From the IMG/VR virus record IMGVR_UViG_3300035664_000006, positions 31,884 through 95,883 of that record: 64,000 bases of DNA. One strand, given 5' to 3'. Source of the stretch: a virus. The position numbers and the translations under genes are program-made. The first letter of the stretch is position 1, and each line of letters starts with the position of its first letter. Positions 13,397 through 63,991 of the stretch are shown here, one piece after another. The notes under the pieces are model-generated. The model saw nothing but the letters and a program-made list of their open reading frames with translations, did no database searches and was not told the origin of the DNA.

Positions 13397-13399
13397 GAA

Positions 13400-15875: not shown

Positions 15876-15897
15876 AATGGATTTCCTGTGTAAGTGA

Positions 15898-16326: not shown

Positions 16327-16350
16327 TTTATATCTCCTTATATAAGCAAG

Positions 16351-16388: not shown

Positions 16389-16413
16389 ATTATAACATAC
16401 TACTTTAAATAAA

Positions 16414-18303
16414 TCAAACTTCTTTAAACTCAGCTTGTACAACGTCTTCATCATTAGATGGTGATGATTCAGATGGTTGATCGGCTGCCTGTTTTTTCAT
16501 GAAAACTGGACTTGCTGCTTCAAATAATTTCTGGACTGATTCATTGATTTTTTCAATATCATCGCCCTTTGAAACATCGTCAATATATTGAACTGCAGTT
16601 TCAAAAGCAGATTTTTCTTCATCTGATAATTGATCTTTTACTTCATCAAAGTCTTTCTGTAAGGTATGACGTTGTGATTCAGCTTGATTACGAGCTTCGA
16701 TCAACTCTTTTTGTTTTTTATCTGCTTCAGCATTTTCTTCAGCATCTTTTACCATACGTTGAATTTCTTCTTCAGTTAAACCTGAATCAGATTTAATGGT
16801 AATATTATTTTTCTTACCTGTTGATTTATCTTGTGCTGAAATATGCATGATACCATTGGCATCGATATCGAATGTTACTTCGATTTGTGGAGTACCACGT
16901 CGAGCTGGTTCAATACCGTCTAAGTTGAATTCACCCAATTGTTTATTATAAGCATACAGTTCACGTTCACCTTGTCCCACCTTGATTGTTACTGCGGGTT
17001 GATTATCCTCAGCGGTTGAGAATGTTTGACTCGCTTTCGTAGGGATTGTGGTATTTTTCTGAATCAATTTAGTCATCACACCACCCATGGTTTCGATACC
17101 CAATGACAATGGTGTTACGTCTAATAACAAGATATCAGTTTTGTCGCCTGATAAAACTGCACCTTGAACCGCTGCACCAGCAGCCACTGCTTCGTCTGGA
17201 TTAACATCTTTACGTGGTGCCTTGCCAAACAATTTTTCAACTGCTTCTTGGACTTTTGGCATACGGGTTTGCCCACCGACTAAGATAACTTCATCAATTT
17301 CAGATAAATCGACTTTAGCATCTTTAATTGCAACTTTACATGGTGCAATACTACGTTCGATCAAGTCATCTACTAATGCTTCGAATTTAGCCCGAGTTAA
17401 TTTTACGTTTAGGTGTTTTGGACCAGTTGCATCAGCGGTGATATATGGTAAATTGACATCTGTTTGTTCAGATGATGATAACTCGATTTTAGCTTTTTCT
17501 GCTGCTTCTTTCAAGCGTTGTAAAGCCATGGTATCATTTTTTAGATTCACGCCGGTGTCTTTTTCGAATTCACTTACTAGGTGATCCATTAAACGTTGGT
17601 CGAAATCTTCACCACCTAAAAATGTATCACCATTTGTTGATAATACTTCGATTTGTTTTTCGCCATCAATGTTAGCGATTTCGATGATTGAAATATCAAA
17701 TGTACCACCACCTAGATCATATACAGCAACTTTACGATCCTTGCTGTCAGCTTTATCAACACCGTATGCAAGTGCAGCAGCAGTTGGTTCATTGATAATA
17801 CGAAGAACTTCAAGTCCAGCGATACGACCAGCATCTTTAGTTGCTTGACGTTGTGAGTCATTGAAATAAGCAGGAACAGTGATAACAGCTTGTGATACTT
17901 CATATCCTAAGTAGTCTTCAGCAGTTTTTTTCATTTTACGTAAAACTTCTGCTGAAATTTGTGGGGGTGCTAATTTGTCACCATTTGCTTCAACCCATGC
18001 ATCACCATTTTCAGCTTTAATAATTGAATATGGCATCAGGTCGATATCTTTTTGAACTGCATCTTCGTCAAATTTACGACCGATAAGACGTTTCGCAGCG
18101 TAGATTGTATTTTTTGGATTTGTAACAGATTGCCGTTTAGCGGCTGCACCTACTAATACTTCTGCATCAGTATATGCAATGATTGATGGGGTAGTGCGTG
18201 TACCCTCTGAATTTTCGATTACTTTTGTTGAGCCATTCTCTAAAATAGCTACGCAAGAATTTGTGGTACCTAAATCGATACCGATTACTGTATTTTTACT
18301 CAT
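16414..18303 (-). CDS. dnaK: DnaK (Hsp70) chaperone
   Basis: 629 residues, essentially full length (E. coli 638). The ATPase domain is intact: [13 protein letters not shown] at 5-17, [38 protein letters not shown]. The linker [19 protein letters not shown] and the substrate-binding domain follow, with the helical lid at ~505-600. The tail ends [16 protein letters not shown] precedes the ATG. DnaJ and GrpE are not in this window and would come from the host or elsewhere in the genome. DnaK is unusual in a phage. Confidence 0.96.
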
Positions 18304-18325
18304 AATGTTCTCCTTTATTAAGCGA

Positions 18326-18354
18326 GTTATAATTTGGCACTATGCCTATGTTAA
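18326..18354 (-). promoter_or_regulatory. Promoter for dnaK
   Basis: TTAACA (18354-18349), a 17-nt spacer and TATAAC (18331-18326), one mismatch in each hexamer. A GTTAAAC/GTTTAAC stem just upstream may terminate the 18377 gene. Confidence 0.5.
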
Positions 18355-18376
18355 ACCCATATGGCGTTTAACGTAA

Positions 18377-18655
18377 TTATTTATCATCTTCTAAAGAAAT
18401 GTGAGACCATTCCTTTAATTTTTTTAATTTATTTTCAGCAGATATTTCAATACCTTCTTTACTTATGATATTATTACAAGCTAGAAGATAAATCATTGCT
18501 TGTAAATCTCCAATTTCTTCTTCAAGATGTTGACGATTTGTTTCACCTTTCCATTCGGTATCTAACCCAAACCTGAAAATTTTGGATATTGCCTGAATAA
18601 CTTCGGCACATTCTTCTTGAGTAATACTAAGTATTTCTCTATGTTGTTCTTCCAT
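18377..18655 (-). CDS. MazG-like nucleotide pyrophosphohydrolase
   Basis: About 92 residues. The all-alpha NTP-pyrophosphatase signature is visible as QEECAEVIQAISK (ExxE) and LEEEIGDLQAMIYLL (ExxD), the four acidic magnesium ligands. The family removes pyrophosphate from (d)NTPs, and phage MazG proteins are often linked to nucleotide or alarmone pools. GGAT lies before the ATG at 18655; an ATG at 18667 is possible. It has its own consensus promoter. Confidence 0.78.
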   Translation of the reverse strand: MEEQHREILSITQEECAEVIQAISKIFRFGLDTEWKGETNRQHLEEEIGDLQAMIYLLACNNIISKEGIEISAENKLKKLKEWSHISLEDDK

Positions 18656-18681
18656 AAAAAATCCCATGATTTAAAGATTGA

Positions 18682-18710
18682 ATTATACCATGGGGATTCT
18701 ATAATGTCAA
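18682..18710 (-). promoter_or_regulatory. Sigma-70 promoter for the MazG-like gene
   Basis: TTGACA (18710-18705), a 17-nt spacer and TATAAT (18687-18682). It overlaps the stop of the methyltransferase gene. Confidence 0.8.
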
Positions 18711-19771
18711 CTAGAATGTCTAGTTTTCTTTAAAGCTTTATCTTTTTTATCTTGCTCTTTCTTTAAAGCTTTATCTTTTTTATCTTGCTCTGCTTTCAAG
18801 ACTTCTTCTAATAATCCTGGATTTTGCTTACACAGTGCATGTTCAATTATATATCTAGCAGTTTCAAAATCTAATCGCCGTCTCCTAACCCCGGATTTTG
18901 TATTTCCTTTAAATGGTGCTAAAAAAACATCATGTGTATTGGTTCTATAATATTCTAATAAGATATTACAATCATCGATTAACATGTTTATATCTACTGG
19001 TGTATTAATTAATATTTTCGATGATGATCTACTACTAACTTTAACTGGACTGGTAATTTTGTCCGGTGTAGTGAAACATATTCTATCAGCGTTGGTACTA
19101 TCAAAACAGATAACACCGAAATTCCCATCATGATTATTAAACTTGATTAAATTTTTACCTAGGTTTAAAGAAGTCAAAGCAAATTTATTTAATGATTTAA
19201 ATGAGCCGATCAACTGATCATTTTTGTAGATATCATAATCATCAGATAATTCAGGACCCCATGTAATAACTATAACTGGGTGTTCAGTGTCTTCAAATGG
19301 ATTTTCTTCTAGTATGTTGATACTACGGATTCTCTTAGATTTATTTGAACTTATCTGATATGTTTCTGGGATTATAGCAACCCCATAATCAAAACTATTC
19401 AAACATTGATTTAACCCTATAACATATAAATCTTCGCATGATGGAAATAGTTCAAAGTATTCCTTGACATTATTTAACTTGTTTCTAGCTGCTGACACTT
19501 TGGCCAAATATGGTGGATTAGTAATGCATAAATCAGTATGGTGTGGCGGGATACTCTTTAAACTATCGTTAATAGGCCAGTTAAATGAATGATCTATGTC
19601 GTAGCCTTTTACTGCATAGTTATCAGCAAATGGGGAAAGTAAATCTCCGCCACCGGCAAATGGGTCAACTATCTGTACAAAATTTAAAGAATCAATAAAT
19701 AATTGAATATTTGACTTAATCCATAAATCCTTTTTTGTAAAAAACTGTCCTAGTTCAACCTTTTTTGTCAT
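18707..19771 (-). CDS. N6-adenine DNA methyltransferase (type II)
   Basis: 354 residues. Starts with KVELGQFFTKKDLWIKSN; the SAM-binding motif is VDPFAGGGDLL (~36-46) and the catalytic motif is TNPPY (~85-89). The C-terminus carries a direct repeat of the 11-residue unit EQDKKDKALKK, a likely coiled or flexible tail. It follows the putative nuclease gene by 8 nt, so the two probably form a restriction-modification pair. Phage use could be self-protection or attack on rival DNA. Confidence 0.85.
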   Translation of the reverse strand: MTKKVELGQFFTKKDLWIKSNIQLFIDSLNFVQIVDPFAGGGDLLSPFADNYAVKGYDIDHSFNWPINDSLKSIPPHHTDLCITNPPYLAKVSAARNKLNNVKEYFELFPSCEDLYVIGLNQCLNSFDYGVAIIPETYQISSNKSKRIRSINILEENPFEDTEHPVIVITWGPELSDDYDIYKNDQLIGSFKSLNKFALTSLNLGKNLIKFNNHDGNFGVICFDSTNADRICFTTPDKITSPVKVSSRSSSKILINTPVDINMLIDDCNILLEYYRTNTHDVFLAPFKGNTKSGVRRRRLDFETARYIIEHALCKQNPGLLEEVLKAEQDKKDKALKKEQDKKDKALKKTRHSS

Positions 19772-19779
19772 ATATGTCC

Positions 19780-20595
19780 TTATAATGAGTTAACAAAATC
19801 AATCAGTGATTCACAATTTCCACAATTTATATTTACATATTGTTGGCATAATGTATTAAGCTCTGGGATATGGCTTTCACCCCATTTACCATCTATTAAT
19901 ACATAAAAATGCATGTTATCGGTGTTATGTTTATTAACATACGCAATTGCTTCATTGATAAAATTTTTAGATTCTTTTACTTGATGCGATTGAGAAGACC
20001 CAGCTGCTTCTGTATATTTCGCAAAAACGTGAATAGTGATATCACCTCCATTACAAATAAAATCTATACTGCGAGCATTTGCTTCTTTTACATCTTTCTT
20101 TTTCTTTATTGTATTGGCTATGATAATATCGCCGTTGCATAGAGTATATAACCCATTTACAGGTTTATTCCATGTAAAGGTATTATTAACATATTTTTGT
20201 AAAGTTGCAAACTGTGTTAACTCATCAACTGTTTGTCTACATGCATTTCTGCTAAATGGAATGGTTATTCTTGGATCAGATATTAATAACAATTGTGCAA
20301 TCTCAGAAATCATTTCTTTTGAAACATTAGTGATGTCATCAACATTGTATATATGACTCAAATCCCTAACAATATAATTAGATATTTTATCACCAATTTC
20401 GTTATAATCAGTATCTTTACTATTTCTGCCAGTTTTAGTTTTTTTAAACTTGGGAAAAATTGAACTACACGGATTTGCGGCAATATATTCCCATACTAGC
20501 CTATCTTCTATGTAATTAGATTGATTGGTTTCAGATCTGCTTTCCTTAATATTTTTAGCACCATTTTTATATTCTGTTTTAATTACGACTGACAT
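19780..20595 (-). CDS. Probable type II restriction endonuclease
   Basis: 271 residues with no motif I can name for certain. The region SIDFICNGGDITIHVFAKY then TEAAGSSQSHQVKES, and later FYVLIDGKWGE, resembles PD-(D/E)XK restriction enzymes. In these an acidic strand is followed by xxK and an AGSxxxxQ stretch; the usual Glu/Asp of ExK is Phe here. Position directly before the methyltransferase supports the call. It is expressed from a consensus promoter with an odd leader (next entries). Confidence 0.55.
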   Translation of the reverse strand: MSVVIKTEYKNGAKNIKESRSETNQSNYIEDRLVWEYIAANPCSSIFPKFKKTKTGRNSKDTDYNEIGDKISNYIVRDLSHIYNVDDITNVSKEMISEIAQLLLISDPRITIPFSRNACRQTVDELTQFATLQKYVNNTFTWNKPVNGLYTLCNGDIIIANTIKKKKDVKEANARSIDFICNGGDITIHVFAKYTEAAGSSQSHQVKESKNFINEAIAYVNKHNTDNMHFYVLIDGKWGESHIPELNTLCQQYVNINCGNCESLIDFVNSL

Positions 20596-20614
20596 ATATC
20601 TTCCATGATAAAAT

Positions 20615-20673
20615 CAAGGAAGCATGAAATTATAGTAAACTATCAATGAACATCATGTTCATTTACTTCCTTG
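20615..20673 (-). promoter_or_regulatory. Leader hairpin, palindrome and 10-codon uORF
   Basis: CAAGGAAG at the 5' side pairs with CTTCCTTG followed by ATTTT, a possible attenuator. Inside is the palindrome ATGAACATCATGTTCAT (20646-20662) and a mini-gene MNMMFIDSLL (20662-20630). The mini-gene's ribosome site AAGGAAG is in the stem. It lies in the mRNA leader of the restriction gene and is a candidate operator or attenuator. Confidence 0.5.
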
Positions 20674-20682
20674 TGTAAATTA

Positions 20683-20711
20683 ATTATAGCATCGTTGATT
20701 GTGAATGTCAA
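20683..20711 (-). promoter_or_regulatory. Sigma-70 promoter for the restriction pair
   Basis: TTGACA (20711-20706), a 17-nt spacer and TATAAT (20688-20683). The -35 overlaps the bS21 stop codon. Confidence 0.82.
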
Positions 20712-20938
20712 CGTTTTTTTGGTAGTGCTTCTTTTTGTAATTTTTTCTTTAGACGAGATTTTGCTGCACCTTTTGCTTTCTTTCTTGTAGTAGTTGGTTT
20801 TTCATAAGATTCTTTAGCACGTAAATCATCTAACTTACCACTTTCTTCTACTTTCTTTTTAAATTTTCTTAACGCTTGATTAATATTATCGCTTTCTTTT
20901 ACTGTAATGCCAGTTCTAGTCTTCTGGTTGATTATCAT
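20708..20938 (-). CDS. rpsU: Ribosomal protein bS21
   Basis: 76 residues. GITVKESDNINQALRKFKKK, LRAKESYEKPTTTRKKAK and a basic helical tail match bS21 (E. coli 71 aa). The ATG at 20938 has GAGG six bases before it, so I prefer it over the two ATGs upstream. bS21 sits near the anti-Shine-Dalgarno on the 30S subunit. Phage copies are known in large and marine phages and may bias initiation towards phage mRNA. Confidence 0.92.
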   Translation of the reverse strand: MIINQKTRTGITVKESDNINQALRKFKKKVEESGKLDDLRAKESYEKPTTTRKKAKGAAKSRLKKKLQKEALPKKR

Positions 20939-21335
20939 CTTCATCCTCATCGATTTCATTTTGCAGTTGATCTGCTATCCAATCTAAATTAAAAATCCTA
21001 TTTTTAGAAATTAGATTGTATGGTGTTATTTCATTATTAGTAATGTAGTGAACATTTGGTTGTGCTAATAAAAAAGTAACGAATTCTCGTGTAATAGTAT
21101 TACAATTATCAATATCAATAATTACAACATCTACCATATGTGATACACTCAACAACCAATCAATATCGGTCTCATCGTTTTCATAAATGAAAACATTAAG
21201 ATCATCAATGCTTTTACTTAAAATTGATTGGAATTGTTGTTTAACGTGTAACGATGGACTTACCAAAAGGTAGCTTACACTTAGATTAAAAATTTTATCA
21301 GGTGGGGTTATTACAGTAATACGACCTAGTTGCAT
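20916..21335 (-). CDS. Conserved T4-like phage protein, 139 aa
   Basis: Starts MQLGRITVITPPDKIFNLS and contains VFIYENDETDIDWLLSVS, VVIIDIDNCNTITREFV and ISKNRIFNLDWI. This is a conserved protein of marine T4-like phages that I recall without a function. The acidic tail (DEDEDDNQPED) overlaps the bS21 start by 23 nt, suggesting translational coupling between the two. Confidence 0.65.
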   Translation of the reverse strand: MQLGRITVITPPDKIFNLSVSYLLVSPSLHVKQQFQSILSKSIDDLNVFIYENDETDIDWLLSVSHMVDVVIIDIDNCNTITREFVTFLLAQPNVHYITNNEITPYNLISKNRIFNLDWIADQLQNEIDEDEDDNQPED

Positions 21336-21355
21336 ATATCCTTCTTATATAAGTT

Positions 21356-21383
21356 ATCACCTAATAAACGTTTATTAGGTGAT
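21356..21383. terminator. Perfect hairpin after rlpA
   Basis: A 28-nt perfect palindrome (ATCACCTAATAAAC/GTTTATTAGGTGAT) between rlpA and the 21335 gene. It probably terminates rlpA transcription. Confidence 0.6.
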
Positions 21384-21402
21384 TTAGTTGTATATGTATT
21401 TA

Positions 21403-21867
21403 TTACCCAACGACATCTAATGATACTCTTTGTATACCATCGATTCCAATTGCTTTTGCTGCACCTTTTGACAAATCCATAATCCTATTTTTAACCCACG
21501 GGCCTCTGTCATTGATTTTAACAATCACAGATTTGTTGTTCTTCAAATTAGTAACTTTCACTTTACTATGAAGTGGGATAGTTCTATGTGCTGCTGTCAT
21601 TGCGTTCTTGTTGAATACTTCACCAGATGCAGTTTTACGACCATGGAATTGAGAACCATAAAATGATGCGATTCCTACCATATTATTTCTTTTTACTGGT
21701 TTGGTTTTTTTATATATTACTTTTTTATCATTCTTGTTAGAATGTGTTTCATGTTTTTGAACAGCCTTTTTTACTACTGCATGATGAACATGTTTATGCT
21801 CTTTTGCTGAAGTAAGTGAAGGCATTAGACTAACTAATAAAGTTAGAATTATAAGTGAATTTTTCAT
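21403..21867 (-). CDS. rlpA: RlpA-like double-psi beta-barrel protein
   Basis: 154 residues from the ATG at 21867 (AAAGGAG upstream). A signal peptide ends near LTSA. A His/Lys-rich linker leads to the RlpA barrel: GIASFYGSQFHGRKTASGE, MTAAHRTIPLHSKVKVTN and INDRGPWVKNRIMDLSKGAA. The conserved catalytic-type Asp and His are present. Bacterial RlpA cleaves naked glycan strands; in a phage it may aid lysis or wall remodelling. No SPOR domain. It lies behind a long structured leader. Confidence 0.87.
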   Translation of the reverse strand: MKNSLIILTLLVSLMPSLTSAKEHKHVHHAVVKKAVQKHETHSNKNDKKVIYKKTKPVKRNNMVGIASFYGSQFHGRKTASGEVFNKNAMTAAHRTIPLHSKVKVTNLKNNKSVIVKINDRGPWVKNRIMDLSKGAAKAIGIDGIQRVSLDVVG

Positions 21868-21889
21868 TTTTTCTCCTTTCACTTGGTGT

Positions 21890-22175
21890 ATCCTTTAATA
21901 GCGATACATTACATTAAGGGAGATAACTGCCAAGGATTGTTAACCCTTATGTCACTGGCGTTTTCTCCATCCGCTATTCAACTGTCACTTGTAATAGCTT
22001 AGGCGAGTATGGCTTCCCGACCTTCGGGTTTCTTCATTGGCCAAGACTCGCGGGATCATTAAATAACTCATGATCCAACTATCTCAGTTTCTTTACGAAA
22101 CGTATTGTATATATCATTTTCCCTAATGCTTCGGTATAAAAATGATATATCACTAAGTATTTACTACTTAATGTA
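21890..22175 (-). ncRNA. Structured RNA leader of rlpA, unidentified
   Basis: From the promoter at 22181 to rlpA there is ~290 nt without a gene but with many stems. These are ATATATCATTTT/AAAATGATATAT, GATCAT/ATGATC, GCGAGT/ACTCGC enclosing TGGC/GCCA and CCCGA/TCGGG, GCTATT/AATAGC, GGAGA/TCTCC enclosing GCCA/TGGC and AAGG/CCTT, and GTATC/GATAC just before the ribosome site. It could be a riboswitch-like leader or a separate RNA. I compared it from memory with c-di-AMP, cobalamin and SAM aptamers and RNase P and saw no match. Confidence 0.65.
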
Positions 22176-22180
22176 CAACA

Positions 22181-22209
22181 ATTATACTACTATATAATTA
22201 AATTGTCAA
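22181..22209 (-). promoter_or_regulatory. Sigma-70 promoter for the structured leader/rlpA
   Basis: TTGACA (22209-22204), a 17-nt spacer and TATAAT (22186-22181). Confidence 0.82.
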
Positions 22210-22424
22210 CCCCACGATAGGGTTATTTCATCAATTTTAGTAATATTGGAACGATTAAAGTCGAATGAACTAAAGTTCAGATATGATAATAATTTAGTCA
22301 TCTCTTGTTCATCTACTTCTATTGATTGATCAGTTACCCAATTATTTGCTATTTTCAAATAATCAGGCATCTGATCAACAAGTTCTACATCTATTTCAAA
22401 CGGTGTTTTTATTAGAAGTTTCAT
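22206..22424 (-). CDS. Hypothetical protein, 72 aa
   Basis: Starts MKLLIKTPFEIDVELVDQ and is acidic, ending DEITLSWG. No domain recognised. Its stop overlaps the -35 of the next promoter. No strong ribosome site is visible. Confidence 0.5.
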   Translation of the reverse strand: MKLLIKTPFEIDVELVDQMPDYLKIANNWVTDQSIEVDEQEMTKLLSYLNFSSFDFNRSNITKIDEITLSWG

Positions 22425-22478
22425 ATTTTTCCAAATCTATGTAAAGTATTTACCTTACCTATAGAAATGTAAAAACTA

Positions 22479-22850
22479 CTACATTTTATGTACAATGAAT
22501 GCAGTCTTAATACCGTTGAACTGCAACGTTCTTGGATCAAATGCCAATTTGAGAACATGATAATTTGCTCTTAATCGCTGTTTAATTGTATCGAAGATTT
22601 CTTTAGATGTTTTTGATTTACCTGATAATTGATCAGCTAATCGTTTTACATCTTCTTTATACAAAAGAACAGACGAGTTGTCATTTATATGGTTTTCAAG
22701 TTGTGCAAACAATTCATTGATTTTTTCAGAACGCTTATCAGCTTCTAAAATGAATTCGTTATCTGAATATTGAATACCTGAACTTTTGCCTTTATTAAGG
22801 TTTAGTGGTGTTACGAATACAACTGGTAATGATGCTAATTGCTTGGACAT
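22479..22850 (-). CDS. Conserved phage hypothetical, 123 aa
   Basis: Starts MSKQLASLPVVFVTPLNLN and ends FNGIKTAFIVHKM. Helical middle with an acidic/basic pattern. No function known to me. Directly preceded by a consensus promoter; an AATGTA/TACATT stem follows near its stop and may end transcription. Confidence 0.6.
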   Translation of the reverse strand: MSKQLASLPVVFVTPLNLNKGKSSGIQYSDNEFILEADKRSEKINELFAQLENHINDNSSVLLYKEDVKRLADQLSGKSKTSKEIFDTIKQRLRANYHVLKLAFDPRTLQFNGIKTAFIVHKM

Positions 22851-22879
22851 ATTGGTTCCTAAAAATTGAAAGAGACTTT

Positions 22880-22908
22880 ATTATAAAATAATGGTTGATG
22901 TTTGTCAA
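22880..22908 (-). promoter_or_regulatory. Sigma-70 promoter
   Basis: TTGACA (22908-22903), a 17-nt spacer and TATAAT (22885-22880), upstream of the 22479-22850 gene. Confidence 0.8.
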
Positions 22909-22912
22909 CAAC

Positions 22913-23200
22913 TCATACAATAATACTAGTAGTAGCTTTAGTATAAGAACTTGCAAATTCTTTTTCAGTTGGTTCTGCTACAACAACAGTGGACCGAAAG
23001 ATTTTCAAATCCCTACTAGGATCAACTGTGAATACAAATGGAACCATTCCGATCCCACCATCTGCACTTGTTAATGCTCTTGGTTTTGAAACTTTTAAAT
23101 AATCAGATCTTTCTTCTACCAATGTTCCTAAGATTTCTTCACCTGATGTTAATTTAATGGTGATTACTTCACCAATTGATAATCCTTTATCGATAATCAT
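22913..23200 (-). CDS. Small Sm-like/SH3-like phage protein
   Basis: 95 residues. GEVITIKLTSGEEILGTLVEE and a later YLKVSKPRALTSADGGIGMVPF form a short beta-rich pattern. It recalls LSm-like proteins conserved in marine T4-like phages. The role is unknown. It overlaps the glutaredoxin gene by 4 nt and would be co-translated with it. Confidence 0.6.
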   Translation of the reverse strand: MIIDKGLSIGEVITIKLTSGEEILGTLVEERSDYLKVSKPRALTSADGGIGMVPFVFTVDPSRDLKIFRSTVVVAEPTEKEFASSYTKATTSIIV

Positions 23201-23499
23201 ACTGCCTCTTGTAAGTATTGTCTTAATTCTGTAAATCCGCCAATGTAATTACCATCAACAAAAATTTGTGGAACTGCTCTTGCAGTTGGAACTGCTTCTA
23301 ATAAATCTTCACGAGACCACTTGTCGCCTGAAATATTTCTTTCTTCGTATTCATATCCTTTCATTCGTAACAAAGCTTTGGCTTGATCACAGAAAGTACA
23401 CAGATCCTTGGACCATACAATAGCTACATTGGTAGTTGATGGTTTGGTGAGAAATCCTTCTGCATTTACAATATAATCTTCTGGAACTTTCCCTGTCAT
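23197..23499 (-). CDS. Glutaredoxin
   Basis: 100 residues. The redox site is CTFC in SKDLCTFCDQAKALL. Then ERNISGDKWSREDLLEAVP, the cis-proline TARAVPQIFVDG and the glutathione-binding NYIGGFTEL. It most likely supplies electrons to the phage class Ia ribonucleotide reductase encoded just upstream. The family usually runs 80-100 residues. Confidence 0.9.
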   Translation of the reverse strand: MTGKVPEDYIVNAEGFLTKPSTTNVAIVWSKDLCTFCDQAKALLRMKGYEYEERNISGDKWSREDLLEAVPTARAVPQIFVDGNYIGGFTELRQYLQEAV

Positions 23500-23500
23500 A

Positions 23501-23662
23501 TTATGCTTTCTCGACTTCTACAATTACAGTACTGCCAACTAATTCTTGAACAATTGATTCTACTGTTGCTTCGAACTCGTCGCCTACTAATGGTGCAACT
23601 GCATCACCTTTGATTAATTTGCTTAATTTAATTACTACTACTTCTTCTTGAATTTGTGCCAT
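23501..23662 (-). CDS. Small conserved phage protein, 53 aa
   Basis: Starts MAQIQEEVVVIKLSKLIKGD and ends VIVEVEKA, preceded by AGGAAAA. It lies 1 nt from the 23664 gene and just before the glutaredoxin. Similar small proteins occur next to glutaredoxin or reductase genes in T4-like marine phages as I recall. Function unknown. Confidence 0.65.
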   Translation of the reverse strand: MAQIQEEVVVIKLSKLIKGDAVAPLVGDEFEATVESIVQELVGSTVIVEVEKA

Positions 23663-23663
23663 T

Positions 23664-24107
23664 TTATTTTCCTATACTATATGTTTGTTGGAATATGTCT
23701 TTTTTGACAACTCCGTAATCATTCTCACCATGTCTAACGATTACATCTTCTTTTGCTTTATAATGCAACGGTTCACCCCATGATGTGTCTACAACTCCAT
23801 CATGATCGGCTAACTTTGCAATTTTAATGATTTTCTTTGGAACACATGTGCCATCACCATTATCATCTTTCAATTCATTGAATTTTTCAGGAGGCATACT
23901 ATATTGTTCACCTTTCGGTCCAGTGAGAATATACCATCCTTTTTTATAATGTTGTGGTTTTCCATTACTTTCTAAGGTATCAATGGTTCCAGGTTTATCG
24001 GCAATTTCATAGTGTTCTGGATTGCCTTTTTTATAAGTTTCAAATGCACCGGTTTTAAACCAATTATCGGTGATACCTTCTGAAACTATATTAATTAAAT
24101 CTCTCAT
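23664..24107 (-). CDS. Hypothetical phage protein, 147 aa
   Basis: Starts MRDLINIVSEGITDNWFK, the XXLxxIVSEG-type N-terminus seen on several small proteins of this phage. The middle (GWYILTGPKGEQYSMPPEKF) looks like a small SH3-like beta domain. AAGGATAATT precedes the ATG at 24107. No function assigned. Own promoter upstream. Confidence 0.6.
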   Translation of the reverse strand: MRDLINIVSEGITDNWFKTGAFETYKKGNPEHYEIADKPGTIDTLESNGKPQHYKKGWYILTGPKGEQYSMPPEKFNELKDDNGDGTCVPKKIIKIAKLADHDGVVDTSWGEPLHYKAKEDVIVRHGENDYGVVKKDIFQQTYSIGK

Positions 24108-24136
24108 AATTATCCTTATCAACTGATTGGAATATG

Positions 24137-24165
24137 ATTATACACCATATTCCAACTGTTGTCAA
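24137..24165 (-). promoter_or_regulatory. Sigma-70 promoter
   Basis: TTGACA (24165-24160), a 17-nt spacer and TATAAT (24142-24137), serving the 23664-24107 gene. Confidence 0.8.
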
Positions 24166-57120: not shown

Positions 57121-59421
57121 CTAAACTTTTAGGTCTAATAAATCTTTATTAATTACACCTAATGTAAATAGTTCATCAATTAACTCAAACTCTATATTGT
57201 ATTCGAGTTTAAATTCATTCCTTACTACTTCATTGTTTCTATAAAAGTCCAATGCATCATCAATATTATTGATATCACCGGTACTATCACACCCATCTAC
57301 CATGAAATCGATGTTTTCAGCAACACATGCGATCACTTCTCTTACCTTGGAGATAATGTCTTTTGGGTCAGTGCTATCATCTGGTTTATTTGAGTTGCCC
57401 TTGACCGGTTTAATTACAGGCATAGCTGTTTTACCTTTTGATACTGAAGCAGTTTTAGCAATTTTTAATGCTTCTAAGTCACGTATCGCAATTGCTGCAA
57501 GTTGATCTTCATTTAAGATATCTAAATTTGCAGTTTTTCCAATGATTCTACTTCTACGATTGAAGCTGATAAATTGTTCTAAGTATTCATCAATTTCAAT
57601 CTTGATACGGTCACCATCCTCTGATGATTTATAGATATCAATCGTTTTCAATACATTACGCAATGCATTTTTCAATCCACACCCATTATTTTTAGCTTGG
57701 CTTTTGGCTGTTTCTAATATCATCGCATCAAATTTATCATCGCGATTTGGATCAAAACTTAATGAAATAATTCTAGCTAATGTTTTATTCATACCAGCTG
57801 TCAATGCACGACTGATGCGCTGTGTAGTAGTTCCAGCATCACCGTTATCATATGCCAAGTACAATTCTGAAATTTGTGGAATTGAAAAACTACGTTGAGC
57901 CATCTGAACAGCTAATATTAATGAGTGTTTATTACTCATTACTGCCTTTTCTATTTCTTCTTTAACAAATGCCTCGGCATCGGCACCTTTCATACCATCC
58001 CCGCCATATACCATTGTGATTCTATAGCCTGGTAATGTATCTTCAGCAATTCGGGCTAATTCTTTCAAGTTTTTATTGGACGTATTGTTCGGGAAAAACA
58101 TCATTGCTACTCGCTTACCTTCATCTGCTGTACGTTCAGTGATTAAGTCAACATTTAAATTATCATAATCACCATCCATAAATAAACTTCTTAATGTTTT
58201 AACCAAGAACCGTTTAGCCTTAACTGGTTTAGCTACAGTTTTACCCCAAGATGGTAAAAATACACCACCATCATCAAATACGTCTGGTTCATTGATTTTA
58301 GTATCTTCAACTGGTCCAGCTAAATCTAATTGATAGAATTCTGCATCTACTACTGATTTTGTTCTTTCTGGATCAACTGTAAAATACTTTAATGTTGTAT
58401 CATATGAGGGACGAACTGTACGTTTTTCAATAAGTAATTCTGGGTACACAACTGTATCAACAAAATCAATTTTCCACGCACTTGCCGCTCGATCAGGATT
58501 GGTGCCAGTCATAAGAATTACAACATCATCTGGCTGTTGTGCATCAATCATAGCCATTGCTTGTCCAGACCGATGCGCCCCGAAATCAGCTTCATCAATA
58601 AATGCCAATCTATCGACATCTAACCCATACAGATAGTCAATACGATCTTGTCTTAATGAACCTGGGCACAATGAAAGAAATGCAACCACTTGCTTACCAT
58701 TACTTAATGCATCATCAATTAACGATTGATAATTCCTAACTGATGTTTCCACGAACACAATATCTTTAAATTGTTCATAACCCGCTAGTTCATTTCTGAT
58801 ACTAGTACCAGCCGTAAGAACGTAGCTGGAATATATAGTTAGTGGAATACCAGCTTCCTTAACGATAGATGCTGACCAAATTGTTTTTCCAAATCTCGCA
58901 CAGAATTCCGCCAACAATACTTGTTTACCTTGTATGATTTTACCAAGGAACAACTCGGCTTTTTCTGCTTGCAAGATATTCAATGATGCGGTTGGCAATG
59001 GTTGACCAGCCTCGTAAAGAAACTTATCTACTCTATATTTAATTTCATCGACTGGAAGATCATGCCATTCCCGAGAGTTTGGTTTAATATGTCCAATATG
59101 CGGTCTGATGTAATCATCAATGTAGATATGAGATTCTCTAAATTTACCAGACTTAATGGCTAAATCAGTTACATCCCATATACCAAAGCAACCAGCTGTA
59201 CCATTTTTCCATTTATGATGACTAGTGGTCAATTGTTCTTTAATACGATCAGATACACCCTCTAATGGATCTTCGCCTGCTGGTACATAAGTTTCACCTA
59301 CTTTACCATCTACATCCGGGTTTTCACTAAAAATGTAGATGAAAACCCGTGCGTTAACTGGATCTATACTAAATTTATAATTATTAACGCCTTTAACTAG
59401 TCCTGTAACTAATTGTGCCAT
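57121..59421 (-). CDS. GIY-YIG (T5orf172-like) nuclease fused to SF2 helicase
   Basis: 766 residues from the ATG at 59421 (AAGGA upstream). Residues ~15-100 contain RVFIYIFSENPDVDGKVGET and later DRIKEQL, matching the GIY-YIG/T5orf172 pattern (YI...KxGxT...RI). The SF2 helicase starts at ~180: Walker A-like EFCARFGKTIWSA, then DEAD-type LAFIDEADFGAHRSGQA, MTGTNPD, and late motifs ALTAGMNKTLARI. With two methyltransferase-like genes downstream it resembles the R subunit of a restriction system. Own promoter. Confidence 0.78.
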   Translation of the reverse strand: MAQLVTGLVKGVNNYKFSIDPVNARVFIYIFSENPDVDGKVGETYVPAGEDPLEGVSDRIKEQLTTSHHKWKNGTAGCFGIWDVTDLAIKSGKFRESHIYIDDYIRPHIGHIKPNSREWHDLPVDEIKYRVDKFLYEAGQPLPTASLNILQAEKAELFLGKIIQGKQVLLAEFCARFGKTIWSASIVKEAGIPLTIYSSYVLTAGTSIRNELAGYEQFKDIVFVETSVRNYQSLIDDALSNGKQVVAFLSLCPGSLRQDRIDYLYGLDVDRLAFIDEADFGAHRSGQAMAMIDAQQPDDVVILMTGTNPDRAASAWKIDFVDTVVYPELLIEKRTVRPSYDTTLKYFTVDPERTKSVVDAEFYQLDLAGPVEDTKINEPDVFDDGGVFLPSWGKTVAKPVKAKRFLVKTLRSLFMDGDYDNLNVDLITERTADEGKRVAMMFFPNNTSNKNLKELARIAEDTLPGYRITMVYGGDGMKGADAEAFVKEEIEKAVMSNKHSLILAVQMAQRSFSIPQISELYLAYDNGDAGTTTQRISRALTAGMNKTLARIISLSFDPNRDDKFDAMILETAKSQAKNNGCGLKNALRNVLKTIDIYKSSEDGDRIKIEIDEYLEQFISFNRRSRIIGKTANLDILNEDQLAAIAIRDLEALKIAKTASVSKGKTAMPVIKPVKGNSNKPDDSTDPKDIISKVREVIACVAENIDFMVDGCDSTGDINNIDDALDFYRNNEVVRNEFKLEYNIEFELIDELFTLGVINKDLLDLKV

Positions 59422-59453
59422 AAAATTCCTTGAACTATTGTTGAGAAAGACCA

Positions 59454-59482
59454 ATTATATCGTTTTACATCGAATCTGTCAA
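59454..59482 (-). promoter_or_regulatory. Sigma-70 promoter for the helicase module
   Basis: TTGACA (59482-59477), a 17-nt spacer and TATAAT (59459-59454). Confidence 0.85.
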
Positions 59483-59494
59483 GATTTATTTCTC

Positions 59495-59523
59495 TTGACA
59501 TACCTTCAGCTACCTTGTATAAT
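59495..59523 (+). promoter_or_regulatory. Sigma-70 promoter for the small-gene array
   Basis: TTGACA (59495-59500), a 17-nt spacer and TATAAT (59518-59523). It is divergent from the helicase promoter, 12 nt away. Confidence 0.85.
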
Positions 59524-59551: not shown

Positions 59552-59857
59552 ATGAAAACAACAATTACAAAACTAGACAGGCGGCATACCGGTTATCAAC
59601 ACTTTAATTATATGGCTGTTCCAAAATGGCAGCAAAACTGGAATCATGTTGATTTGACTGATACACATCGATTAATGAGACAATGGTGCTGGGAAACATT
59701 TGGTCCAAGTTGTGAATATGATGAATACCGCTCACTTTTTGGTCATCGAGATATTAATACCAGATGGTGTTGGTTAGCGAGTGCAGAACGCCGTTCTCCG
59801 CGTATTTTAATTCAATCTGAAGAAGATAAAAACTGGTTTGTGTTGAGGTGGTCATGA
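59552..59857 (+). CDS. Array protein 1, 101 aa
   Basis: From ATG 59552, ~29 nt after the promoter; starts MKTTITKLDRRHTGYQHF. Contains LMRQWCWETFGPSCEYDEY and TRWCWLASAERR; ends EEDKNWFVLRWS. The last codons TTG-AGG-TGG-TCA-TGA give GAGG as ribosome site for the next gene. An upstream in-frame ATG lies before the promoter and is unlikely. Confidence 0.72.
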   Translation: MKTTITKLDRRHTGYQHFNYMAVPKWQQNWNHVDLTDTHRLMRQWCWETFGPSCEYDEYRSLFGHRDINTRWCWLASAERRSPRILIQSEEDKNWFVLRWS

Positions 59858-60129
59858 TTAAAGTCAAGTTGAAAAAATATCACATATCAGAATTCGAACT
59901 CTTTACTCCAAAATATTACGAATTATTGACAACTTATAAAGAAATGAAGCAATGGTGTCGTGATACTTATGGTAAAGGCTATGACAATGCTACTAGAAAA
60001 TGGTGTTGGCGAAGTGGAGTAAACTCCGAAGAAGTAGAAAATGATGACTATGATACCTATAGGAAGTATGTGGTATTTTTCTTCACTAGTGAGGAACACG
60101 CGAGTTGGTTTTTAATGAGATGGGGTTAA
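59854..60129 (+). CDS. Array protein 2, 91 aa
   Basis: ATG overlaps the previous stop (ATGA). Starts MIKVKLKKYHISEFELF; contains EMKQWCRDTYGKGYDNAT and RKWCWRSG; ends EEHASWFLMRWG. Same plan as protein 1. Confidence 0.75.
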   Translation: MIKVKLKKYHISEFELFTPKYYELLTTYKEMKQWCRDTYGKGYDNATRKWCWRSGVNSEEVENDDYDTYRKYVVFFFTSEEHASWFLMRWG

Positions 60130-60130
60130 T

Positions 60131-60310
60131 ATGTTATTTGACGTGACTGATTTTCCTAAATTTGTGAGTTATGCTGAAAAAAATTATCCGCCTTTTACTC
60201 ATATGACCACTATACTTATAGCTGCCGGGTATAAATCATCCCGGTTCGCGGATGCAGATTGGTATATGGATGATATCGAATATACACATTTTGTATTGAG
60301 GTGGTCATGA
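60131..60310 (+). CDS. Array protein 3, 59 aa
   Basis: Starts MLFDVTDFPKFVSYAEKN one nt after the previous stop, with GAGATGGGG upstream. Ends DIEYTHFVLRWS; lacks the WC helix. Shorter member, with the terminal motif intact. Confidence 0.72.
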   Translation: MLFDVTDFPKFVSYAEKNYPPFTHMTTILIAAGYKSSRFADADWYMDDIEYTHFVLRWS

Positions 60311-60513
60311 GAACTCTCATAATAACTCAAGATTCATTTCTTGATAACAAATTTTTAGATATGTGGGAAAATGATAATGACCCTAGAAATTGGGCTGATT
60401 TCATTAAAAGTTTAGATAATAACATCATGACTGTGGGTTTTAGAAATCAAACAACTACAATTCAATTTATCAATGAATCACATAAAACTTGGTTCTTAAT
60501 GAGGTATGCATGA
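60307..60513 (+). CDS. Array protein 4, 68 aa
   Basis: ATGA overlap. Starts MRTLIITQDSFLDNKFLDMW; ends NESHKTWFLMRYA. The terminal W is Tyr. No WC helix. Confidence 0.72.
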   Translation: MRTLIITQDSFLDNKFLDMWENDNDPRNWADFIKSLDNNIMTVGFRNQTTTIQFINESHKTWFLMRYA

Positions 60514-60758
60514 GTCAAAAATTAGGATGGAAGAAGAAATATCCATTTAAAGCAACAATAAAAAGTGATAATGTAGAAGCGTCAGCATGGTTAAGATCAC
60601 AGTTTGGGCATGATTATTTAACGCTATCGACCGGTAGAAGGCTAGTACTCAATAGAAAAGACCAGGTATGGGCATTTGAGAAATGGGAGTATACTGGTTC
60701 TACATATGGATTTGGTAATGAGGAACTTAGGACGTGGTTTTTAATGAGATGGGGATGA
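60510..60758 (+). CDS. Array protein 5, 82 aa
   Basis: ATGA overlap. Starts MSQKLGWKKKYPFKATIKS; contains ASAWLRSQFGHDYLTL and AFEKWEYTG; ends NEELRTWFLMRWG. Confidence 0.74.
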   Translation: MSQKLGWKKKYPFKATIKSDNVEASAWLRSQFGHDYLTLSTGRRLVLNRKDQVWAFEKWEYTGSTYGFGNEELRTWFLMRWG

Positions 60759-60759
60759 T

Positions 60760-60966
60760 ATGAGAATAAAGAAAATGCCATTTGAAAAGAATAGCTTTAT
60801 TCTAAGTGAAAACAAAGGTGAGCGTTCGGTATCTAAGCAAGAACAACATAGCCTTGTAGAATGGATGGAACAGAAAAATATGAGATATATCTTAACTGGT
60901 AATATCTTAACTTTACCACGAGAAGAAGATCAAACCATATTTATATTACGATGGATGACTGAATAA
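60760..60966 (+). CDS. Array protein 6, 68 aa
   Basis: Starts MRIKKMPFEKNSFILSENKG. Contains SLVEWMEQKNMRYILTG. Terminal motif REEDQTIFILRW followed by MTE, so the C-terminus is extended. GAGATGGGG precedes the start. Confidence 0.7.
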   Translation: MRIKKMPFEKNSFILSENKGERSVSKQEQHSLVEWMEQKNMRYILTGNILTLPREEDQTIFILRWMTE

Positions 60967-60976
60967 AAGGACAACA

Positions 60977-61442
60977 ATGGACAAGGAAGACCGTAACAAG
61001 GATCGGGAAGATCTATTAAACACAATAAAAAGAAAATGCAGAAAAGTGGATTAGTGGTGATAAACCAGAACCCGTTGTCACTTCATTTTCATCAGTAATA
61101 ATGCCAATGATTAGGAAAGTTATGCCACAAATGATAGCAAGTCAACTAACAGGAGGCCCATCTGGTATGGTTTATAATATGGGTTCTATCTTTGACACAA
61201 TTTTAACCACTCATATTGAACAAGTAGCAGTTAATGGCAAAGAAATTGATTACTATGCCATTAAAATCCCATATGGATATTTTGATAAGCACGATTTATC
61301 AACTGATGATATTTATCAATGGTGTATTGACACGTATAGTAAAGATAACGATGATAGCAGATGGTATGTGCGTGGTTCGATGACTTATCTCTTCAGAACT
61401 GAAGAAGATCGCAATTGGTTTTTATTAAGGTGGAGTTCATGA
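60977..61442 (+). CDS. Array protein 7, frameshifted; capsid-like N-region
   Basis: A start MDKEDRNKDREDLLNTI (ATG 60977, AGGA upstream) stops at 61054. Reading one A fewer in the run at 61027-61031 joins it to NAEKWISGDKPEPVVTSF and the long frame ending EEDRNWFLLRWSS. The segment SVIMPMIRKVMPQMIASQ then GGPSGMVYNM resembles a conserved stretch of T4-like major capsid proteins; the rest (YQWCIDTYSKDNDDSRWYV) is array-like. Either a homopolymer error, a real frameshift, or a decayed N-region with translation restarting at 61101. Confidence 0.55.
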
Positions 61443-61660
61443 TATTAACAAGTATTCTTAAATTTGAAACAGAAGGTAAACTGATTAATTATTATTCAGT
61501 TAGAGTGCCAAACATATCACAACGAGAAGTAGATAGCTGGTGTTTAAAAACATTTGATCTCTCTGAAGACAAAGATAGATGGTTTACTGATGGATGGTTT
61601 GTTTATTATTTCAAAAACGAAGAAGATCGAAATTGGTTTTTATTAAGGTGGGGGTCATGA
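61439..61660 (+). CDS. Array protein 8, 73 aa
   Basis: ATGA overlap. Starts MILTSILKFETEGKLINYYS; contains VDSWCLKTFDLSEDKDRWFT; ends EEDRNWFLLRWGS, nearly identical to the end of protein 7. The DNA of the two 3' ends is also close. Confidence 0.76.
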   Translation: MILTSILKFETEGKLINYYSVRVPNISQREVDSWCLKTFDLSEDKDRWFTDGWFVYYFKNEEDRNWFLLRWGS

Positions 61661-61686
61661 TAACCAATTTATGTCAGGAGGTAGTT

Positions 61687-61956
61687 ATGGATTCTGGAAT
61701 GTTTTATGCACCGTATATTCCAGTTGGCATACCAGGAATAAAACCGTATTCTTTTATCAGAAAGGTTGACGATGTTAATGAAGCATGGTATACTATAAAA
61801 ATACAGCATCCACCAGCAGTGGATTGGATGATAGAGGAATTGCCAATCGGTAGTTGGCGGTATGCTGCCAATACACCATTAGGTGGATGGGTAGATCTGT
61901 CGGTATACGATTTAAGAGAAGATGCATATAGTTGGTTTACGCTGAGGTGGTCATGA
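61687..61956 (+). CDS. Array protein 9, ~89 aa
   Basis: ATG 61687 has a perfect AGGAGG 5 nt upstream; the ATG at 61657, coupled to the previous stop, would add ten residues. Starts MDSGMFYAPYIPVGIPGI; ends LREDAYSWFTLRWS. WMIEELPIGSWRYAAN is the internal helix/W segment. Confidence 0.7.
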   Translation: MDSGMFYAPYIPVGIPGIKPYSFIRKVDDVNEAWYTIKIQHPPAVDWMIEELPIGSWRYAANTPLGGWVDLSVYDLREDAYSWFTLRWS

Positions 61957-62171
61957 AAGTCAAGATCTATAAATTAGATCCGTATGAAAATGCGATTAAG
62001 GAAGCAATCGAAGAACACAATCTTCAAGATATACGAGGATACGATAGAATTATTCGTAAGTTAGGGTTTCCTAGTTGTGAGTTTATTCCAAATCTGGGGA
62101 AGGCTGCTGATAGTCATTGGGAGATGGATGAAATTGAGTTTACTTGGTTTGCATTAAAGTTCAGTAGATAA
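61953..62171 (+). CDS. Array protein 10, 72 aa
   Basis: ATGA overlap. Starts MKVKIYKLDPYENAIKEAI; ends MDEIEFTWFALKFSR, a diverged terminal motif. Mostly helical. Confidence 0.7.
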   Translation: MKVKIYKLDPYENAIKEAIEEHNLQDIRGYDRIIRKLGFPSCEFIPNLGKAADSHWEMDEIEFTWFALKFSR

Positions 62172-62173
62172 TC

Positions 62174-62386
62174 ATGGTATCGATTAATATAACTCACAAT
62201 CAATGGAACAAATTAGTATTCTATTATGATGAGTCCGATTCTAGTATTCAGGCAATCCGTTCATCACGAGAAATGAAACAATACATCAAAGATACCTATC
62301 ATGGAAATTATGATCAATTAAAAGGTTTTGGGACCATCACATTTGAGCATGAACATCATCTAACTTGGTTTTTATTAAACATATGA
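62174..62386 (+). CDS. Array protein 11, 70 aa
   Basis: Starts MVSINITHNQWNKLVFYYD. Contains EMKQYIKDTYHGNYDQLKG; ends HEHHLTWFLLNI, so the LRW part is lost. The start of the next gene still overlaps (ATGA). Confidence 0.7.
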   Translation: MVSINITHNQWNKLVFYYDESDSSIQAIRSSREMKQYIKDTYHGNYDQLKGFGTITFEHEHHLTWFLLNI

Positions 62387-62652
62387 GATTTGAAGATATA
62401 AAACTACGATACACTGTTGTACTCGACAATTTAGATGACCTAAGAAAACATGCATCTGAGTTGCCACCCGGTATACGACCAGATGATTATGATGCAATCG
62501 CTGACATTATGTGCAAATGGTGTGAACAGCAATTTGGTGAGAAGACAGTAAAATGGGATTATTGGCTAGCTAAAGCTTATGATCCAGCTGAAGATCATTT
62601 TAGTTTTGAAGAAGAATATCAACGAACCTTGTTTGTATTGAGGTGGTCATGA
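62383..62652 (+). CDS. Array protein 12, 89 aa
   Basis: ATGA overlap. Starts MRFEDIKLRYTVVLDNLDD. Contains IMCKWCEQQFGEKTVKWDYW; ends EEYQRTLFVLRWS. The W of WF is Leu. Confidence 0.74.
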   Translation: MRFEDIKLRYTVVLDNLDDLRKHASELPPGIRPDDYDAIADIMCKWCEQQFGEKTVKWDYWLAKAYDPAEDHFSFEEEYQRTLFVLRWS

Positions 62653-62870
62653 GTTTACCTATAAATGGTACATATGAGTTATTTTGTCATCTTGGGTTAA
62701 TCCATTGTTTTGATGATCCAGGATTTTGTATTCGCGATGTTGCTGAAATACACGAATGGATTAGACAACAGCCTACTGATCTTTGGAGGGGTATGGATGA
62801 ACCATATGCGTATACTGTATATTATTTGCAACCTGAATTGTATATTTGGTTTAAAATGAGATGGATATGA
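62649..62870 (+). CDS. Array protein 13, 73 aa
   Basis: ATGA overlap after GAGGTGGTC. Starts MSLPINGTYELFCHLGLIHC. Contains EIHEWIRQQPTDLWRGMDE; ends QPELYIWFKMRWI. Confidence 0.74.
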   Translation: MSLPINGTYELFCHLGLIHCFDDPGFCIRDVAEIHEWIRQQPTDLWRGMDEPYAYTVYYLQPELYIWFKMRWI

Positions 62871-63121
62871 AACAAACATTATCAAATGCTGATTTACAGA
62901 AATTATGGGCTAATTGGCTATTAACTTTACAAGGCCAACATGTCAGTGGCTATGGGCTTAGAATGAGTTACGATACTCAATCTCGTAATTATGGTCCTGC
63001 TAGGTGCTTCGAAGATTGGTTATTTTCACAAGGCGCAATAGTTAAACAAGTTAAAGGTAAACGCCACTTGGAATTCATGACACCAGAACAAGCAACATGG
63101 TTTAAACTAAAATGGCTATGA
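62867..63121 (+). CDS. Array protein 14, 84 aa
   Basis: ATGA overlap. Starts MKQTLSNADLQKLWANWLL. Contains CFEDWLFSQGAIVKQVKGKR; ends PEQATWFKLKWL. Confidence 0.74.
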   Translation: MKQTLSNADLQKLWANWLLTLQGQHVSGYGLRMSYDTQSRNYGPARCFEDWLFSQGAIVKQVKGKRHLEFMTPEQATWFKLKWL

Positions 63122-63300
63122 CCATTGATTTAGAAATTTTTCGCGAACCAACTACTGTTTTTATATGGTTATGTAAATCGTTTGGGCCACCTGGATTAAA
63201 CCATGGTAGGTGGGAGTTGCGAGACTTGAGATATATAGATTTTCAGAATGATATGGACAAGACGTTCGTATTATTAAAATTTGATTTAAAGGGAAAATAG
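63118..63300 (+). CDS. Array protein 15, 60 aa
   Basis: ATGA overlap. Starts MTIDLEIFREPTTVFIWLC; contains KSFGPPGLNHGRWELRD; ends DKTFVLLKFDLKGK, a degenerate motif. Last of the array. Confidence 0.68.
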   Translation: MTIDLEIFREPTTVFIWLCKSFGPPGLNHGRWELRDLRYIDFQNDMDKTFVLLKFDLKGK

Positions 63301-63303: not shown

Positions 63304-63639
63304 ATGATTAATGGGATACAAAGTAATAGCGCACATATATTGGCTTATTCAAATGGCAGTTCTTCAATAACATCCGGTTCATTACGAATACAAAATGGTA
63401 GGTTAGAAGCATATGCTGGTTATAGTTGGACACCAGTAGAATATGAGAATGGGATAGTTGGGTTAACAACACAAGCTGAACAGGCGATAGATTGGGCATA
63501 TAAAAAAATGATTGAAGAAAAAGAAGAACAAATTTTAATCGAAAAATATCCATCATTGGGTAGTGCTAAAGGTCAATATGAAATGATCAAGAAAATATGT
63601 CAAGCTGAGGAAGAACTTGACACCAGTAAAGGAGTATAA
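63304..63639 (+). CDS. Hypothetical phage protein, 111 aa
   Basis: Starts MINGIQSNSAHILAYSNGSS, with AAGGGAAA upstream. N-terminal beta-rich (LRIQNGRLEAYAGYSWTPVE), C-terminal helical (AIDWAYKKMIEEKEEQILIE, KYPSLGSAKGQYEMIKKIC). Lacks the WFxLRW motif. I recall similar tail/virion-region proteins in marine T4-like phages. Confidence 0.65.
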   Translation: MINGIQSNSAHILAYSNGSSSITSGSLRIQNGRLEAYAGYSWTPVEYENGIVGLTTQAEQAIDWAYKKMIEEKEEQILIEKYPSLGSAKGQYEMIKKICQAEEELDTSKGV

Positions 63640-63643
63640 TATA

Positions 63644-63991
63644 ATGGAGTTCATAATTTTAATTGCACTGCAATTAAAACATTGGTACATAGATTTTGTT
63701 AATCAAACCGATGCAGAAGTTGTCAGTAAAGGCCATTATGGGGAATTAACCGGTATACTGCATAGCGCAAAACATGGTATTGGAACCGGGGTTATTTTTC
63801 TATTCATTGATCCATATCTAGCTCCAATCATGGTATTATTTGATGGGTATTTACATTACCACATCGATTGGGCTAAACGTAATTTTGGTAATCAAGATAT
63901 CCAGAATCCTAAATTTTGGGCACATCTAGGTCTTGATCAGATGGCACATCAGTTATGTTATATCGGGTATGTAGCAATGGTGGTGTTATGA
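63644..63991 (+). CDS. DUF3307-like membrane protein
   Basis: 115 residues from the ATG at 63644 (AAGGAG upstream). LKHWYIDFVNQT begins a family pattern with His and Asp in or near the membrane; HSAKHGIGTGVIFLFIDPY, HYHIDWAKRNFG and LGLDQMAHQLCYIGY follow. Two or three membrane segments. Function unknown; similar genes occur in T4-like marine phages. Confidence 0.7.
   Translation: MEFIILIALQLKHWYIDFVNQTDAEVVSKGHYGELTGILHSAKHGIGTGVIFLFIDPYLAPIMVLFDGYLHYHIDWAKRNFGNQDIQNPKFWAHLGLDQMAHQLCYIGYVAMVVL

Follow-up and report, generated by a model that had tools for sequence, protein, structure and literature searches.

A fifteen-gene array from a large, undescribed family of small phage proteins with a C-terminal motif that apparently doubles as a ribosome site

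Large eukaryotic DNA viruses carry tandem multigene families of diverged paralogues in variable copy number, several of which act against host immunity. Among phages, the T4-like cyanophage S-PM2 has an 'ORFanage' in which more than 30 small, often overlapping open reading frames (ORFs), their functions unknown, follow a host-like early promoter, and it is dispensable in culture and has been seen in freshwater metagenomes (PMC4503421). In T4-type phages, short repeats between small accessory genes, the PeSL cassettes, are thought to mediate modular shuffling (Arbiol 2010 and Comeau 2014, as summarized in PMC4503421), and Bacillus phage G has about 35 copies of a zinc ribbon, called unprecedented in a survey of 224 jumbo phages (PMC7824862). 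In the present study, we analyzed the last 64 kb (64,000 nucleotides, nt; hereafter the window) of the 95.9-kb IMG/VR virus record IMGVR_UViG_3300035664_000006. Judged by sequence comparison, the 15 consecutive small frames at positions 59552-63300 on the + strand make up a single array, and their products belong to a large phage protein family that is as yet undescribed.

The array resembles the ORFanage as a row of small overlapping genes behind a host-like promoter; however, the ORFanage is not one family, lacks the WFxLRW terminus of the proteins described here and gives no match to their profile. With the PeSL cassettes it shares a short repeated sequence between small accessory genes, but PeSLs, as far as the cited summary describes them, are non-coding promoters and terminator hairpins, whereas here the repeat is the coding 3' end together with the putative ribosome site of the next gene. 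As with the zinc ribbons of phage G, one small protein family has expanded within one large phage genome, although the family is another one, with about 126 copies in one contig, and it occurs in overlapping rows and in many phages. No homology to the families of eukaryotic viruses is expected, and the present case is a phage operon with translational chaining and a putative function. As for integron-like cassettes, no integrase was found in a Pfam scan of 20 window proteins, which was not exhaustive, and the junctions consist of a coding motif and a start codon. The family and its scale are new, as is the apparent double use of a protein terminus as the ribosome site of the chain; translational overlap itself is ordinary.

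One protein family and its range

A preliminary description of the sequence had listed 15 consecutive frames by their C-termini behind a consensus promoter, and all of these elements are present, as listed below. E is the expectation value with an independent profile made from 89 members of other contigs (the window and its close relatives excluded); G001 is the related 94-kb contig IMGVR_UViG_3300044613_002694, and L053, L013 and L094 are further loci with orthologues; aa, amino acids; pLDDT, predicted local distance difference test.

59495..59523, + strand, sigma70-type promoter TTGACA-17-TATAAT, exact consensus, heading the array 29 bases before the first ATG
59552..59857, + strand, w1, WFVLRWS, E 5.2e-9; short leader without a clear Shine-Dalgarno sequence; orthologues in L053 (72%) and L013 (52%)
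59854..60129, + strand, w2, WFLMRWG, E 8.1e-11; 67% to L053
60131..60310, + strand, w3, HFVLRWS, E 0.007; short sub-family; 67% orthologue in another array of G001; AlphaFold2 pLDDT 96.4
60307..60513, + strand, w4, WFLMRYA, E 1.1e-5
60510..60758, + strand, w5, WFLMRWG, E 1.8e-8; 92.6% aa identity to G001 3445-3690, flanks unrelated
60760..60966, + strand, w6, IFILRWMTE, E 1.2e-5; motif Arg encoded by CGA, no overlapping gene downstream; orthologue in L013
61101..61442, + strand, w7, WFLLRWSS, E 5.2e-12; N-terminal extension frameshifted relative to L053
61439..61660, + strand, w8, WFLLRWGS, E 9.6e-14; paralogue of w7; AlphaFold2 pLDDT 86.5
61657..61956, + strand, w9, WFTLRWS, E 5.8e-6; orthologues in L053 and L094
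61953..62171, + strand, w10, WFALKFSR, E 0.031; short sub-family; 52% orthologue in G001
62174..62386, + strand, w11, WFLLNI, E 9.4e-7; 87% aa identity to G001 15359-15574
62383..62652, + strand, w12, LFVLRWS, E 1.7e-10; 65% orthologue in G001
62649..62870, + strand, w13, WFKMRWI, E 9.5e-5; 55% orthologue in G001
62867..63121, + strand, w14, WFKLKWL, E 5.6e-6; 56% to L053
63118..63300, + strand, w15, FVLLKFDLKGK, E 0.017; last member; motif kept though neither terminal nor a Shine-Dalgarno sequence; orthologues in L053 and L013

The independent profile recovered 15 of 15 frames (E 9.6e-14 to 0.031), and the next best of 834 six-frame ORFs had E 0.26; this bears out the view that the 15 proteins, among which pairwise similarity is low, form one highly diverged family. 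Fourteen array frames matched a regular expression for the motif, as against one of the 808 frames outside the array. Members are about 60-110 aa long and follow roughly the pattern W(C)..fG...rW....f.F.dE.DA.WF.LRWx-stop. The preliminary description had taken the shared motif for the C-terminus itself, which holds for most members; however, w15 continues beyond it, and w6 and w10 carry two to three residues after it.

The earlier statement that no described family has this signature agrees with our searches, in which 106 divergent members gave no match to PHROGs, NCBIfam or PDB sequences and only two single, stray matches to Pfam; since none was consistent across the members, assignment to a described family was rejected. 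The motif strings were absent from the literature as far as open-access papers are concerned, and a description elsewhere is possible.

A search of IMG/VR with a DNA pattern for the 3' end (WF..RW-x-ATGA) gave at least 119 stretches. Profile members were found in 108 of the 119 loci listed (three or more in 93, ten or more in 19), and about 600 unique members were counted among them. G001 gave 122 profile matches at E<=0.01; by ORF reading it has about 126 members, which together occupy 28 kb (30% of the contig), and a single row of about 84 on the same strand spans 2-21 kb. Counts in large contigs of 333-400 kb range from 10 to 33 members. Among cultured phages, a near-identity search with the array region gave no match and tblastn with single members gave nothing significant. 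The family consensus pointed weakly to Sinorhizobium phage Phosso, a cultured jumbo phage of 469 kb, and the profile then confirmed it with 39 matches (35 at E<=0.01); several of these members have R(W/F) termini and stand in overlapping rows. Agrobacterium phage Atu_ph07 has about seven weak, dispersed relatives, and LR756504 has two marginal profile matches. No match at E<=0.01 was found in RaK2, CBB (one frame at 0.1), nt-1, Lak-B4, Pseudomonas phage Y6, four huge uncultured phage records, S-PM2, S-RIM32 or S-SRM01. Plasmids searched for the family gave none. In GTDB genomes, only one contig with an array (L217) was found among 111 pattern matches, and thus the family is, as far as these collections indicate, essentially viral. 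L217 carries 15 members in 6.4 kb and was binned with a Bacteroidetes genome; it is probably a phage contig and a possible hint of a host. The window phage has a virion protein that is most similar to those of T4-like cyanophages (S-RIM32, 50%), and therefore this phage is probably a T4-superfamily myovirus.

The S-PM2 ORFanage (S-PM2p017-052) was considered as a source of members and rejected, with a best profile E of 0.013 in a set of 39 proteins and no motif; the whole S-PM2 genome gave no profile match at E<=1. In this region (S-PM2 4500-19000, L266), a stop/start overlap of 8 bases, ATGACTGA, often gives the genes an ND or DD ending, a chaining signature unlike WFxLRW.

Motif codons, ribosome sites and predicted structures

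At ten of the 14 junctions, consecutive frames overlap by the four bases ATGA; the others have stop-to-start spacings of 1 base (w2/w3 and w5/w6), 2 bases (w10/w11) and about 134 bases (w6/w7). The last of these intervals (60967-61100) resembles a lost N-terminal extension of w7. The w7 orthologue in L053 is longer and continuous, while the window gene has a frameshift within an A-rich stretch, either natural or an assembly error.

At overlapping junctions, the LRW codons read TTG AGG TGG TC ATG A, which contains GAGGTG at the normal Shine-Dalgarno distance, and these codons apparently serve as the Shine-Dalgarno sequence of the next, ATGA-overlapped gene. AGG makes up 297 of 392 motif Arg codons (76%) at overlapping junctions, compared with 142 of 1736 Arg codons (8%) in gene bodies. 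In G001, where the search pattern itself fits only 40 of the 112 motif-bearing members, AGG is used for 55 of the 64 motif arginines at ATGA junctions, and therefore search bias alone is not the explanation. Where 0-12 bases separate the genes, 33 of 39 junctions retain W and R or K is dominant, with AGG in only six; the residues likewise persist where the following start does not overlap and with codons that form no Shine-Dalgarno sequence, for example in w6, w11 and w15. The AGG excess at overlaps, taken with this retention elsewhere, argues that the protein motif is real and that its codons were co-opted to provide a ribosome site for the gene that follows.

One might instead regard the WFxLRW terminus as a by-product of gene chaining, TTGAGGTGGTCATGA supplying the ribosome site and the overlapping start and unrelated small genes converging on it. 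The strong over-use of AGG and TTG at overlapping junctions would be expected in that case, and in nearly all members a single codon separates the motif from the stop. However, W-F, the upstream F.F.dE.DA and W(C)..FG...RW sit outside any ribosome site, the motif persists in cases such as w6, w11 and w15, without an overlapping next start and with codons that form no Shine-Dalgarno sequence, and the ratio of nonsynonymous to synonymous substitution rates (dN/dS) is lowest at the C-terminus. Furthermore, the overlapping genes of the S-PM2 ORFanage show only a two-residue junction bias without a profile match, and both structure models described below share a strand-strand-helix. This explanation is already largely refuted and seems to us very improbable. 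The preliminary description had warned that the motif might reflect a ribosome-site constraint only; the codons are indeed tuned as Shine-Dalgarno sequences, but the residues are conserved independently.

AlphaFold2 models were obtained for w8 (106 sequences), with the element order b-b-a-b-b-a (b, strand; a, helix), and for w3 (20 sequences of its own sub-family), with b-a-a-b-b-a. Both are confidently predicted to end in a strand pair followed by the WFxLRW helix, and their N-terminal halves differ, as had been proposed for a family with a common terminus and variable N-terminal parts. In BFVD, only uncharacterised phage proteins were matched (best E 5e-4). Judged by helix periodicity, conservation extends to both faces of the last helix, a hint that it forms an interface in addition to the core.

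These models bear on whether the proteins could be regulatory or nucleic-acid-binding, the w3-type members having a winged-helix order of elements and possibly binding DNA, RNA or RNA polymerase. The order predicted for w3 and several non-significant PDB matches of its model to winged-helix regulators point this way, as do one member with a weak match to HeH/LEM (E 5e-4) and the proposal that the multi-copy zinc ribbons of phage G are transcription factors (PMC7824862). However, all PDB matches of the w3 model have E >2 and low template modelling (TM) scores, and w8 is predicted to have a strand where w3 has a helix; therefore helix-turn-helix is not general, and we consider such a role unlikely for the family.

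Whole-gene turnover and selection

The L053 array has w1, w2, w3, w7, w9, w14 and w15 in the same order and lacks the other window members. In G001, counterparts of w1, w6 and w15 are in an array at 74-76 kb, and those of w3-w5 and w8-w14 are in other arrays 40-70 kb away, with identities of about 40 to 93%. The nearest relatives of most members are in other arrays of related phages, and therefore single-gene gain, loss and transfer dominate, and the expansion is not mainly due to local tandem duplication, to which the preliminary description had attributed it.

For w5 and w11, the nucleotide similarity to G001 is about 90-93% between unrelated flanks; its 5' limit lies in the motif codons of the preceding gene or close to the start codon, and its 3' limit coincides with the end of the gene. 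Among 101 short shared blocks, 63% of the 3' ends had a member stop no more than 15 nt away (random expectation 7.7%). Of the 5' ends, 46% were between -45 and +10 relative to the preceding stop (random expectation 15%), but this figure is inflated, since alignments tend to continue into the motif, where the sequences are similar in general. Between phages, the arrays clearly change by whole-gene units, with boundaries at the motif. Members share 25-40 nt of similar sequence at the 3' end, and homologous recombination there may move single genes, each of which would both find and bring a ribosome site. Since every gene would end in the ribosome site of the next and in this shared sequence, ordinary phage homologous recombination could add, remove or exchange single genes and leave the translational chain intact.

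Over 66 independent orthologue pairs, dN/dS was 0.18, and 0.12 in the last 18 codons; the pairs were picked at 65-98% identity, which biases the ratio downward. Selection at the protein level, whose lack would have spoken against the preliminary description, is thus purifying and strongest at the C-terminus. For 21 close paralogue pairs in G001, dN/dS was 0.45 overall, with 0.22 for the last 20 codons and 0.56 for the remainder, and one tandem pair reached 1.5 in the N-terminal part. These small, partly overlapping samples suggest that the N-terminal part changes faster after duplication. The family had been called fast-diverging, which holds only in part: the orthologues have the ratio of 0.18 given above, and only recent paralogues reach 0.5-1.5 outside the C-terminus.

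Such ratios between some recent paralogues, together with rapid gain and loss and the extreme copy number in G001, would suit selfish or near-neutral genes, whose easy insertion and duplication let arrays grow by recombination with little benefit per gene. However, orthologues in different phages are under purifying selection, and phage genomes are under size pressure, yet G001 devotes nearly a third of its length to members. We judge this explanation improbable.

Expression and possible function

The exact promoter at the array head agrees with the preliminary description. A second exact promoter (59454-59482) points the opposite way, towards a helicase-like gene (57121-59454). Nine exact TTGACA-17-TATAAT sites are present in the window (14680-24165, 59454-59523 and 63617-63645), and 13 sites have at most one mismatch, compared with a mean of 1.9 and a largest value of 6 in shuffled sequences. 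The orthologous arrays in L053 and L013/L017 also begin behind exact promoters, and exact promoters were found at ten of 106 array heads (seven distinct sequences) but at none of 192 controls. In the promoter at 63617, the -10 box runs into the start codon and the Shine-Dalgarno sequence lies inside the spacer, likewise upstream of the L013/L017 array. An interpretation as PeSL cassettes was rejected in view of the ATGA overlaps, the one exact promoter at the head, and terminator-like sites at chance level.

The proteins may be early host-takeover or anti-defence factors, held as a repertoire of which each member is dispensable on its own; this fits best because of the strong host-type promoters, the small size, the variable N-terminal parts and the high turnover. 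The variable N-terminal parts would contact different host targets, and the conserved helix would build the core and probably also a shared interface. We hold this functional assignment tentatively, at somewhat less than even odds. With a similar degree of reserve, the array may be viewed as a self-propagating architecture, in which the conserved C-terminus is both ribosome site and recombination anchor, so that one lineage could keep and reshuffle more than 100 diverged effectors based on a single structural unit, a multigene-family arsenal against host functions. To the whole account (family array, dual coding, turnover, and takeover or anti-defence repertoire) we give a probability of roughly 0.6, and our confidence in the anatomy and the gene turnover is higher than that.

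Several points weigh against this account. The PADLOC defence library gave six single-member matches (best E 0.0017) and no consistent family, no array neighbour points to a target, and the w3 and w8 models have no significant fold match in PDB. The strand-strand-helix with the motif in its last helix is predicted as a family trait from these two models, early expression is read from the promoter consensus, and recombination at the motif is deduced from whole-gene boundaries, with a block test partly confounded on the 5' side. Moreover, genes that are selfish or under weak selection could likewise show turnover with relaxed selection on recent copies. We regard selfish genes and nucleic-acid-binding regulators as serious rivals to the takeover or anti-defence role.

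Other features of the window lie apart from the array. A tRNA with a CTA anticodon (712-786; ARAGORN: Pyl) is a possible amber suppressor; the TAG recoding it suggested was rejected, since TAG ends 13 of 65 long ORFs, and TAG was kept as a stop. A 685-aa protein with CHASE2 and adenylate/guanylate cyclase domains (6134-8191) is encoded near FecR, PA14 and RimK-like genes, an unusual signalling cluster for a phage. At 16414-18303, a DnaK/Hsp70-like protein is about 50-68% identical to copies in huge-phage and other phage-filed records.

With the family defined, hundreds of ORFans from more than 100 viral contigs, a large portion of phage 'dark matter', become one recognisable family. That the same codons may specify both a protein motif and a ribosome site offers a concrete, testable principle by which phages could assemble rows of accessory genes and exchange them. 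Cultured Phosso, with about 35 copies, makes the function directly testable, and if the proteins are takeover or anti-defence factors, the arrays would be a large natural library of them.

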